From a virus: a stretch of DNA of 25,014 bases. Position numbers and translations under genes: made by a program. Location: the IMG/VR virus record IMGVR_UViG_3300020034_000067, positions 1 through 25,014 of that record; one strand, 5' to 3'. This document shows positions 2,746-5,724 of this stretch, one piece after another. The number at the start of each line of letters is the position of its first letter. Position 1 is the first letter of the stretch. Under the pieces are notes generated by a model. It was not told where the DNA came from and did no database searches. It was given only the letters and a program-made list of their open reading frames with translations.

Positions 2746-5025
2746 ATGCCTACTTTAACAACGTTCCAAGATTTCTATAATCAGGGGCTTCACGCCATCC
2801 CTGTAGTTTTCAATATCACGACCAAAGAAGTAACCGATTACCCCAGGCATAAGGAAGATTCCACTGGCCTGGCCGGGGTGCCTACCATGGAAGATGTCCA
2901 ACGGTGGATGAAGGTTATGAAGGGCCAGAATGGGTATGCCCTAAAGCTCTTCCCTCCATTTGGTTCCATTGACATAGATATTAAGAACACGTCAAATAAA
3001 AACGTATATGCCGACTGGTTGAGAATTGTGGAGGCGAATAATTCCGATGTTCTTAGGAAGGTCTGCATCGAAACTACCAGGAATAAAGGATACCATATTT
3101 ATATTAAGTATCCGAAACTCACTGAGAAGATTCCAGTGGCTAAATCCGGTGGCAAGGAAGTGATCAGCGTTTACACGGGCGGGCTGTTAAGTTTCTGTAC
3201 TCCATCACCTGGGTATCAGCTTATCCATAATGATTTCTCGGACATCCAGGAACTAACCGATGAAGAGTTTGATCTATTACTTACTACAGCTGCACTGTTT
3301 AACGAAGACGCCGATTTCAAGCCTGGTGAACACCAGCACCTATTAATCGAATACCCGGTTGAATACGAAAGTGTGTTGCTTCAGTTCGACTCGAAGATCA
3401 CAGACGAAGCCTTTGATACCCTGCTTAATTCGATTGACCTGTATGAAGTAGAGTCTAAGTTTAAAAAGAATTACCTCCCGTACCTGCGCAAAGGATCCAT
3501 GGCCAACTATTCGGCCAAGGTGTATTTCAAGTCCAAGCGCGTTCTGATATTCTCTGCATCCGTTCAGGGTTTTCCATCATGGCATGACAGCGCTGGTGAG
3601 GGTGATAACCGTTGGGTGCTCACACCCTCAAAGATTGTTTATTATAAGAATAAACAATCATGGCCGGACACCATGGATGAGATCCGGATGATTGCAGACA
3701 GTGCAGGCCTAGAGATAATTGAAGGCCCGCCGGTTACTAAACAACCCTTGGTTTCCGAAGACCGGCTAAGGTTCCCCTACGATGTATTCCCGGTATCGAT
3801 ACAGACCTATCTGTTCAACCAGGTAATACAGCATGAATACTTGGCCGGGGCCATCCTGGTAGCACTGGCAACAGCAATAGGCAACTCCGCAGTGCTCGAA
3901 GCAATGGATGGATATTTTGTCAAACCGATTCTGTACATGGCCATCGTTGCTCCACCAGGCGCCAGTAAGTCACCGGCACTAAAGAAAGCCTTTGCACCGA
4001 TGGAAGAATATGACGGCGGTCTGTACAAGGCGTACCAGGCCGAGGTTGAGGTGTTCAAGAAATCCCTGGCAGCGTTCGAACGGGACAAGAAAAAAGGAGA
4101 GAAGCCGGAGAAACCAGCGTTCCCGCAAACGTTGATCAAGGATTCAACTATTGAAATGGTGGTGAAGATTCTGTCCACGAATCCCGGAGGATGTTGTGTC
4201 CTCGCTGATGAACTCAGTGGGTTCCTTGCCCGAATGAATCAGTACAAGACCGGCGATGAAGTGCAGAAGTGGCTGGAGATGTGGAGCGGTGCGCCGATAC
4301 TTCTGCAGCGTATTACCCGGGATGAGAACAAGGTACAGGAACCATTCTGCAGCGTAGTCGGCGGGATTCAACCAGGCGTTCTGGAGTCGTTGAGTAAGGA
4401 AGAAAATGAGCATAACGGATTCTATCACCGATTCCTGTTTGTCTACCCAGAACCGAAACCTAAAGAGAAATGGCTGCGGATTAGTGTATCGGAGGCGGTT
4501 AAGTCGGCATTCGTTCAGGTGTTCAATGATATCCTTCGCCAGCGACTGGGTAAATATAAATACCGCCTCGAAGAAAAGGCCAACGCGCTGTACGAAGAGT
4601 GGTTCAATAACAAGAACACGAAGTACAACCGGGCGACCAGTGACCACGTGAAAGGCATCATCTCCAAGTACCAGGATTACTGCCTAAGGTTCGCCTTGCT
4701 CCTGCAGGTTATCCATGACGGTGCACATCGGACAGGGGTTGTTACCGAGGCCTCGATGGACCGGGCGATCCGGTTGGTTGAGTATTTCCTGGGGAACATG
4801 CATAAGGCTACGAAGATCCTGGCGCCGGAAACTCCGGTTGATAAGTTGAGTGGTACGCATAAAAAAGTATATGATGAACTCCCGGCGGCATTTAGTCAGA
4901 AGCAGGCGATACAAATAGGAAACCTTAACGGATTGAAAGAGAGCGCGGTAAAGATGTTTTTAATACGAGGCATCAAGACATTATTCACGGTTATCGAAAG
5001 AGGAAAATATGAGAAGAACTATTAA
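2746..5025 (+). CDS. Primase (PrimPol-like) fused to DUF3987 helicase-like ATPase
   Basis: This 759-residue protein combines replication primase and helicase-like parts. The N-terminal region has the archaeo-eukaryotic primase motifs: SIDIDIK with D76 and D78, and GYHIY with H117, as in bifunctional primase-polymerases. The C-terminal half matches DUF3987 ATPases: a degenerate Walker A, APPGASKSP (402-410, K408/S409), and a Walker B, VLADE, with D488/E489. The last 60 residues look like a winged helix. It should synthesise primers and probably unwind or load at the phage origin. The gene ends at the edge of the iteron-rich region and is followed by a DnaA-like gene, completing a replication module. 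The Walker A lacks the usual Gly before Lys, which also occurs in other DUF3987 proteins as I recall them. Confidence 0.88.
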   Translation: MPTLTTFQDFYNQGLHAIPVVFNITTKEVTDYPRHKEDSTGLAGVPTMEDVQRWMKVMKGQNGYALKLFPPFGSIDIDIKNTSNKNVYADWLRIVEANNSDVLRKVCIETTRNKGYHIYIKYPKLTEKIPVAKSGGKEVISVYTGGLLSFCTPSPGYQLIHNDFSDIQELTDEEFDLLLTTAALFNEDADFKPGEHQHLLIEYPVEYESVLLQFDSKITDEAFDTLLNSIDLYEVESKFKKNYLPYLRKGSMANYSAKVYFKSKRVLIFSASVQGFPSWHDSAGEGDNRWVLTPSKIVYYKNKQSWPDTMDEIRMIADSAGLEIIEGPPVTKQPLVSEDRLRFPYDVFPVSIQTYLFNQVIQHEYLAGAILVALATAIGNSAVLEAMDGYFVKPILYMAIVAPPGASKSPALKKAFAPMEEYDGGLYKAYQAEVEVFKKSLAAFERDKKKGEKPEKPAFPQTLIKDSTIEMVVKILSTNPGGCCVLADELSGFLARMNQYKTGDEVQKWLEMWSGAPILLQRITRDENKVQEPFCSVVGGIQPGVLESLSKEENEHNGFYHRFLFVYPEPKPKEKWLRISVSEAVKSAFVQVFNDILRQRLGKYKYRLEEKANALYEEWFNNKNTKYNRATSDHVKGIISKYQDYCLRFALLLQVIHDGAHRTGVVTEASMDRAIRLVEYFLGNMHKATKILAPETPVDKLSGTHKKVYDELPAAFSQKQAIQIGNLNGLKESAVKMFLIRGIKTLFTVIERGKYEKNY

Positions 5026-5066
5026 TTGTCACATTCGTCACTGGTTTGTCACATGGGTACGTGACT

Positions 5067-5245
5067 TTGAAACCCTTACTGGTATTGACTATAAGGTCAA
5101 TGTCACCAATGTCACATACTTATATAGAAATATAAGATCTTATATTATATTATATATTAATATGTATGGGGTATATAGAGATTCGGGGATTGACATGTCA
5201 AAAACGTGTGACTTTGGTGACTTTGCCTTGAAACCCTTACTGGTA
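5067..5245 (+). repeat. 18-bp direct repeat pair in the putative origin
   Basis: TTGAAACCCTTACTGGTA occurs identically at 5067-5084 and 5228-5245, once on each side of the AT-rich centre. Each copy sits after a GTGACTTTG core and before a GTCAC core; the right copy has an extra CCTTG between core and repeat. The pair suggests duplication of a binding module. Confidence 0.85.
5117..5178. other. AT-rich segment with 18-bp palindrome (possible unwinding element)
   Basis: The segment is almost entirely A and T and contains the perfect palindrome AATATAAGATCTTATATT at 5129-5146. It lies in the middle of the GTCAC core array, as a duplex unwinding element would in an iteron-type origin. A promoter for the downstream gene could overlap it. 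Confidence 0.6.
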
Positions 5246-5328
5246 CTACATTTCGTTCGTCACAACCCATGTGACTTTGGATGTATCAATGTGACAAAAC
5301 AATCACTTGTGACAAAAACCCCCATCTC

Positions 5329-5724
5329 ATGACCCACCTATCCCCCTACATCATCCCGGGGCTCGTCCCGCTCGTCATCACCCCTATGGACGTGATCAAG
5401 ACGGTATGCGAGCACCACAACATCAAAAGCCAGGAGCTGTTCAGCAAATACCGTGGCAGAGCAGTAGTCATCGCCCGGATGCACGCCATGTGGTTGATGC
5501 GAACCAGGTTAAAATTGAAAGTGAAGGTAATCGGGAGTTTCTTCCAGCTACACTACAGCAGCGTCATTCATGCTGTCAAAACCATCGACGACCTGCAGAC
5601 GACATATCCGGAGCACAAAGAGACGATTGATCGCCTGGCCAGATCGCTAAACAGGAAAGGACCGGCAGGCAGAGAACTCGTCAACCAGCTCGTCCGAGGG
5701 TTGGGAAGGAGGGAGGCGGTATGA
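5329..5724 (+). CDS. DnaA domain IV-like DNA-binding protein
   Basis: The 131-residue product resembles the C-terminal DNA-binding domain of DnaA without its ATPase. RAVVIARMHAMWLMR (about 44-58) aligns with the R-x-x-A-M-Y-L helix. KVIGSFFQLHYSSVIHAVKTI (67-87) aligns with the helix-turn-helix and signature loop that read a DnaA box, with H-Y-S-S-V-I-H-A where DnaA has D-H-T-T-V-x-H-A. It probably binds the neighbouring origin-like repeats and recruits the replication machinery, although it could instead act on host DnaA boxes. An in-frame ATG at 5281 exists, but it would translate part of the repeat array; 5329 is preferred. The next small gene overlaps its stop by ATGA. Confidence 0.8.
   Translation: MTHLSPYIIPGLVPLVITPMDVIKTVCEHHNIKSQELFSKYRGRAVVIARMHAMWLMRTRLKLKVKVIGSFFQLHYSSVIHAVKTIDDLQTTYPEHKETIDRLARSLNRKGPAGRELVNQLVRGLGRREAV

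Follow-up and report, generated by a model that had tools for sequence, protein, structure and literature searches.

In the Rep system of the staphylococcal pathogenicity islands (SaPIs) and the related Cch2 system of SCCmec the origin lies directly downstream of the gene, and its iterons are read by the C-terminal domain of the encoded protein (PMC7581432). The Cch2 iterons are 5 nt in length (AAGTG), and binding as two hexamers has been proposed; SV40 T antigen and papillomavirus E1 have been named alongside these initiators (PMC7581432). ORF904 of the archaeal plasmid pRN1 combines an AEP primase, a helicase, and a winged helix, and an essential origin element is located 3' of its gene (PMC4234260). 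For the DUF3987 proteins of mobile elements (PrimQH and All3500 families) Kazlauskas et al. predicted a helicase function, and for this class of proteins they put forward origin recognition by C-terminal winged helices (PMC5862659). No description of a DUF3987 origin, iteron, or specificity was found in the open-access literature searched. The alpha protein of phage P4 carries a primase, a helicase, and a C-terminal winged helix in one protein, and its binding sites are short repeats that occur in both orientations. In P4 ori and crr are two separate sites, with crr beside the origin, and to our knowledge no mirrored 12-core layout has been described for this phage. The origins of SV40 T antigen and E1 contain four inverted short pentamers.

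The window, which is the whole stretch of viral DNA that was analyzed, is 25,014 nucleotides in length. It contains a primase-helicase gene followed by an array of short cores. This array is very probably a phage replication origin which has the preceding primase-helicase as its own initiator. The features of the locus are as follows.

2746..5025, plus strand: primase-helicase gene, 759 aa, with the array directly behind it (Pfam PF13148, E 3e-62)
4843..5022, plus strand: codons of the C-terminal winged helix, proposed reader of the cores (AF2 model of the domain alone, pLDDT 85)
4939..4968, plus strand: codons of the predicted recognition helix, residues 732-741 (secondary structure of the models)
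4954-4956 and 4966-4968, plus strand: codons of M737 and R741, respectively, which co-vary with core bases 4 and 5
5026..5313, no strand: mirror-symmetric core array, proposed replication origin (core positions and conservation in relatives)
5028..5115, no strand: left arm of the array, six cores (5028+, 5037+, 5048+, 5061-, 5102+, 5111+)
5067..5084, plus strand: linker element TTGAAACCCTTACTGGTA, an 18-bp direct repeat, left copy, between slots 4 and 5
5116..5182, no strand: AT-rich center with an 18-bp palindrome, probable unwinding element
5129-5146: the 18-bp palindrome, AATATAAGATCTTATATT
5208..5313, no strand: right arm of the array, six cores (5208-, 5217-, 5259+, 5271-, 5291-, 5309-)
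5228..5245, plus strand: linker element TTGAAACCCTTACTGGTA, right copy of the 18-bp direct repeat
5329..5724, plus strand: DnaA domain IV-like gene, not a conserved part of the module (Bac_DnaA_C, Pfam PF08299, E 3e-16)

An AlphaFold2 model of the 759-aa protein, built from an alignment of 21 relatives, had a pLDDT of 80 and showed three parts. These were an N-terminal AEP primase domain (approximately residues 1-330), a DUF3987 MCM-like AAA+ helicase domain (residues 346-693), and a C-terminal winged helix (residues 700-759). The N-terminal domain matched the pRN1 primase (3m1m/1rni) in Foldseek with an E value of 6e-6 and a probability of 1.0. The acidic and histidine motifs of AEP primases (D76, D78, and H117) were invariant in the alignment of relatives, and on its modeled fold and these motifs the domain is predicted to be a primase. 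The DUF3987 match scored 211 bits against a gathering cut-off of 27. This was the only Pfam domain found, with no MCM, DUF927, or D5/Primase_Cterm domain, and a comparison with the PDB by sequence gave no meaningful match. Residues 346-690 matched the MCM fold (VIA-align Z approximately 16), and the helicase domain is predicted to be MCM-like, an assignment taken from the fold match and not from a sequence match. When folded alone with AF2 (pLDDT 85) the C-terminal domain showed the order helix-strand-helix-helix-strand-strand of a winged helix. In structure comparison the archaeal MCM C-terminal winged helix and the MecI/BlaI repressors came out on top, within one Z unit of each other (Z 7-7.7), which may reflect a common fold only.

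The locus is similar to the SaPI Rep/Cch2 systems in that the proposed origin is just 3' of the initiator helicase gene, the iterons are short, and the predicted reader is C-terminal. It differs in the helicase family: SaPIbov1 Rep/Cch is a DUF927 protein and SaPI5 Rep/Cch2 a D5/Primase_Cterm protein, whereas the protein here carries neither of the two domains that mark kinship to SaPI Rep, only the MCM-like DUF3987. It also differs in having 12 cores which are mirrored as >>><>>, each arm containing one flipped core, and which are recoded between close relatives. The N-terminal domain resembles that of pRN1 ORF904 in fold, but pRN1 needs a stem-loop of approximately 100 nt while the recurring feature here is the core array, and the pRN1 helicase is classed as SF3. 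P4 alpha is likewise a single protein with primase, helicase, and C-terminal winged helix and with repeats in both orientations, although its primase and helicase belong to other families. A self-loading hexameric helicase, inverted short sites, and two rings moving in two directions, as proposed here, are also known from T antigen and E1. Those are proteins of animal viruses with no sequence link, with the DNA-binding domain N-terminal to the helicase and with four cores. The PrimQH and All3500 families share the DUF3987 domain itself.

Twelve exact GTCAC/GTGAC cores are present at 5028-5313 in the order >>><>>|<<><<< around the AT-rich center. The sequence-only reading had reported these 12 cores with an identical inward series from both ends (three forward, one reverse, two forward), as well as the AT-rich center, the 18-bp palindrome, and the 18-bp direct repeat found once on each side. 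All of these were present as claimed. GTCAC occurs 40 times in the whole window against 39.4 expected, which is the chance frequency, so the signal is the clustering (12 in the array against 0.5 expected, P approximately 3e-13). Given 12 cores, 1 in 64 random series of orientations would be mirrored, so the symmetry by itself was weak evidence until relatives gave the same series. Spacing in the window is imperfectly mirrored, with 9, 11, 13, 41, and 9 on the left and 18, 20, 12, 42, and 9 from the outer end on the right. No counterpart of the palindrome was seen by eye in relatives, where AT-richness alone recurs. It was rejected as a functional element and is probably a by-product of the AT-richness. 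In L004 and L017, whose cores differ, an element similar by eye to the linker element of slots 4-5 (AAACCCTTAC..GTATTGA) occupies the corresponding position. A second protein or a DNA bend may be associated with this element.

The gene at 5329..5724 adjoins the array and has a significant Bac_DnaA_C match. Its DnaA domain IV-like product might bind the cores, in which case the array would be a DnaA-type origin. However, the array contains no DnaA box even when one mismatch is allowed, so the DnaA/oriC arrangement of boxes read by an adjacent DnaA homologue is absent. No relatives of the product were found in viral contigs. The only other locus with a detectable homologue is L004, where it is encoded at L004:59-739, approximately 2.7 kb upstream of the primase gene and away from the array; no array-bearing relative has an adjacent homologue. 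The core bases also track residues of the primase-helicase. A DnaA-driven origin was rejected as the main reading, and binding of the cores by this product is very improbable. The DnaA-like protein may act in another role in these phages. The proposal of the sequence-only reading that the array is a replication origin is retained as a conserved, origin-like mirrored array beside a DUF3987 gene. Of the two gene partners it had named, the DUF3987 primase-helicase is beside the array in almost all relatives and the DnaA-like gene, seen again in L004 alone and not adjacent there, was dropped.

The preferred reading, an origin served by the primase-helicase, was examined in relatives. The first set consisted of ten relatives of the protein (50-58% identical) and more were added later. 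Relatives were mostly viral metagenome contigs, and near-duplicates among them were thinned. Close relatives in genome contigs were limited to a Pedobacter cryotolerans element (L044) and one distant MAG match. In nine of the first ten relatives an obvious array of short cores around an AT-rich center was found behind the gene, with cores differing from those of the window; the array of the tenth, L002, was doubtful. As a position control, the densest two-way hexamer cluster was sought blind over the whole locus. In 31 of 34 close loci it was located no more than 450 nt past the stop codon, where place alone would give 1.8, and in 15 of 16 distant loci it was no more than 1 kb past it, against an expectation of 2.2. 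An iteron array immediately 3' of the helicase gene, as in the SaPI systems, is thus found in 31/34 close loci, and the SaPI-type pair of iteron sets around an AT-rich region is found in the window and in relatives.

The order >>><>> recurs on the left in relatives, and << with ><<< on the right. Slot spacings are about 8-9, 11, 11-13, 41-54, and 8-9. Both arms of L004 have spacings of 9, 11, 12, 42, and 8, and both arms of the distant L136 (protein approximately 30% identical) have 9, 11, 15, 40, and 9, so that each is mirrored to the base pair. The cores of relatives include GTAACA, GTTACA, GTTTCA, ATAACA, ATTACA, TATGCA, TGTGCA, GTTGCA, GTTACG, GTAAGG, GTAAAA, and GTCAAA. The general form is NTNNCA and that of the window is GTCACA. 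A search for the same cores beside DUF3987 genes had been put forward as a check on the array; it is the layout and the place that are kept in relatives, and not the letters of the core, which vary along with the protein proposed to read them. The refuting condition set in the sequence-only reading, cores not conserved in relatives, therefore applies to the letters but not to the layout. In two loci the array is displaced and still present (L113 by +645 nt, L165 by +934 nt), and in the distant L148 the hexamer cluster starts just before the stop codon.

Variation in the array was also observed. No clear array was found in L002 (helicase 58% identical; region L002:7473-7900), and it may be degenerate or relocated. 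The flipped fourth core is absent in L003, L028, L032, and L063. L032:6296-6740 holds an enlarged array in which numerous TTGTTACA cores span more than 400 nt and the flipped fourth core is missing. Mixed cores are present at L003:8290-8530 (GTTACA and GTAACA) and L126:5287-5590 (GATTCA and GTTTCA). L003 was missed by the exact hexamer count because of this mixture. Such arrays may be recoding intermediates.

Distant DUF3987 helicases without a fused primase (L070, L073, L075, L077, L080-L083), which come from Bacteroidota genomes and human-gut phage scaffolds, have smaller two-way arrays just after the stop codon. Their cores are TTGGCA, TGGCGGAA, TGGCGAA, TTGTCG, and TTTGCAG. Twelve CCGCCA cores were seen at L072:259-560 in a Bacteroidota genome, approximately 900 nt upstream and not downstream of the DUF3987 helicase gene. 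No arrays were seen in the most distant DUF3987 loci (L034, L045, L068, L071, and L078).

The array is intergenic and contains inverted repeats, features that would also suit a transcription or RNA control element (operator or terminator) acting on downstream genes with no role in replication. However, the array stays behind the primase-helicase gene although the downstream genes differ among relatives, and the next gene may even be on the other strand (L004). A natural chimera also bears on this point. The DNA of L106 is 85-87% identical to that of L063/L064 up to the primase/helicase border, shows no similarity through the helicase, winged helix, and array, and is 73-78% identical again just after the array. 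Over L106:3001-5634 the identity to L063 is 80% in the primase half, and the helicase, C-terminal HTH, and array have been replaced as one block. The core is GTAAAC in L106 and GTTGCA in L063. The array is therefore linked to the helicase and C-terminal domain, and neither the primase nor the downstream gene moves with it. As the protein that covaries with the cores is also the helicase, a control element without a replication role is a highly unlikely explanation.

Support for the primase-helicase as the reader of the cores also came from a finer exchange, in L121 and L122. These proteins are 96.8% identical before residue 726, and the DNA is 89% identical over 3.3 kb. After residue 726, 9 of 33 residues differ, including 737, 740, and 741. 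When L121:4588-4960 was compared with L122:5254-5630, all 13 cores compared were changed (AGTTACA against AGTAAAA-type) at the same offsets, with the spacers largely alike. Change was seen in 32% of core columns and 20% of spacer columns (Fisher p 0.03), an excess that is modest because the core changes at only 2 of its 7 letters.

The relationship between core letters and protein residues was followed across loci. The cores were placed in register using the CA end that they share and the AAA flank; for L118, whose frame is the least sure, this was done by eye on the AAA flank. When the first 19 loci were scanned, the top column of 636 for core base 4 was residue 737; this rank is not blind since the residue had been spotted by eye beforehand. 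The base-4 rule (Ser with G, Thr with T, and Met, Val, or Ala with A) was fixed before new loci were read. It held in every testable new locus, including those with Thr/T4 (L126, L127, and L130) and Ser/G4 (L118). The base-5 rule, in which Arg at 741 goes with C and Asn, Gly, or Ser with A or G, was formulated only once these loci had been read. After thinning, the combined set comprised 24 loci and 651 columns; here base 4 had residue 737 as its top-ranked column and base 5 had residue 741, and each residue determined its core base completely. The chance of both top columns falling in one ten-residue helix is approximately (10/651)^2 = 2e-4. In the full set of 30 loci, near-duplicates included, residue 737 was second by z for base 4 and the base was still completely determined.

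On a tree built without the C-terminus, base 4 changes five times and residue 737 changes in all five cases. Sign tests on independent pairs gave 5/5 (p 0.0625) and 3/3 (p 0.25), with too few pairs to reach 0.05. No residue in the recognition helix explained core bases 1, 2, 3, or 6. K736 was among the better columns for base 1, with exceptions. In the distant subfamily, L144 and L154 have four differences in the last 48 residues, including Asn/Asp at the position aligned to 737, and their cores differ only at base 4 (TTCTCA and TTCGCA, respectively). There the code reads Asp with G4, Asn with T4, and Ser with A4, with L148 and the Ser group as misfits. Carrying the base-4 code over to this subfamily was rejected as it fails in detail; the residue-to-base code is a different one, so the code is not universal. 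Taken together, the covariation and the natural module exchange suggest that the C-terminal DNA-binding domain sets the core specificity, as in the SaPI systems.

By analogy with SaPI Rep/Cch2 and pRN1, a scheme for DNA binding, loading of two rings, melting, and the start of replication can be proposed. The C-terminal winged helix would bind the short cores and each mirrored arm would collect subunits into one helicase ring. The AT-rich center would then melt and the two rings would move away from each other, with primers made by the N-terminal primase domain. An alternative is that the primase-helicase binds the array as a site of copy control, loading, or segregation, similar to crr of P4, and that replication starts elsewhere. 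The covariation and module exchange indicate at most a bound site. The array is also not marked by GC skew: in eight contigs the skew is one-way, follows gene direction, and has no inflection at the array. The cumulative GC skew check advised in the sequence-only reading thus lent no support, and a skew minimum was rejected as origin evidence, the skew being monotonic. Against a start elsewhere, no second core cluster was found in eight fully read contigs, where the densest other 460-nt window held 1-4 matches; in one fully read phage contig 11 of 12 copies of AGTTTCA were at the array. The AT-rich center between mirrored arms suits melting, and related initiators have their origin at the very same place (PMC7581432, PMC4234260). 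A bound site that is not the start is therefore considered unlikely. The best reading, by comparison with these initiators, is that the array would work like the SaPI origins with another helicase family, as the origin of a self-loading initiator.

What appears to be new here, from the comparison of loci, is that the core and the recognition helix of the initiator are recoded jointly within a conserved layout. The chances seem evenly balanced that this phage-origin family re-spells approximately a dozen sites together with two recognition-helix residues while the mirror spacing is kept exact to the base pair, making near-identical phages mutually incompatible replicons. If true, this would be a natural and readable protein-DNA code for an MCM-like initiator. 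In PLE satellites origins are exchanged and restructured under attack by an origin-directed nuclease (PMC8263062). The recoding may have a comparable, testable cause, perhaps pressure from origin-targeting parasites or nucleases.

With these results DUF3987, a widespread domain of unknown function, gains a predicted specific role and target site. The origins of many uncultured phages would be predictable from their sequence alone. Joint changes of specificity in an initiator and its multi-site origin can be followed in a natural data set formed by the near-isogenic pair L121/L122, the possible intermediates L003 and L126, and the domain-swap chimera L106. As a mirror-symmetric origin of a bacterial virus would here be tied to an MCM-like ring helicase, the loading of two facing rings becomes testable in one small protein.
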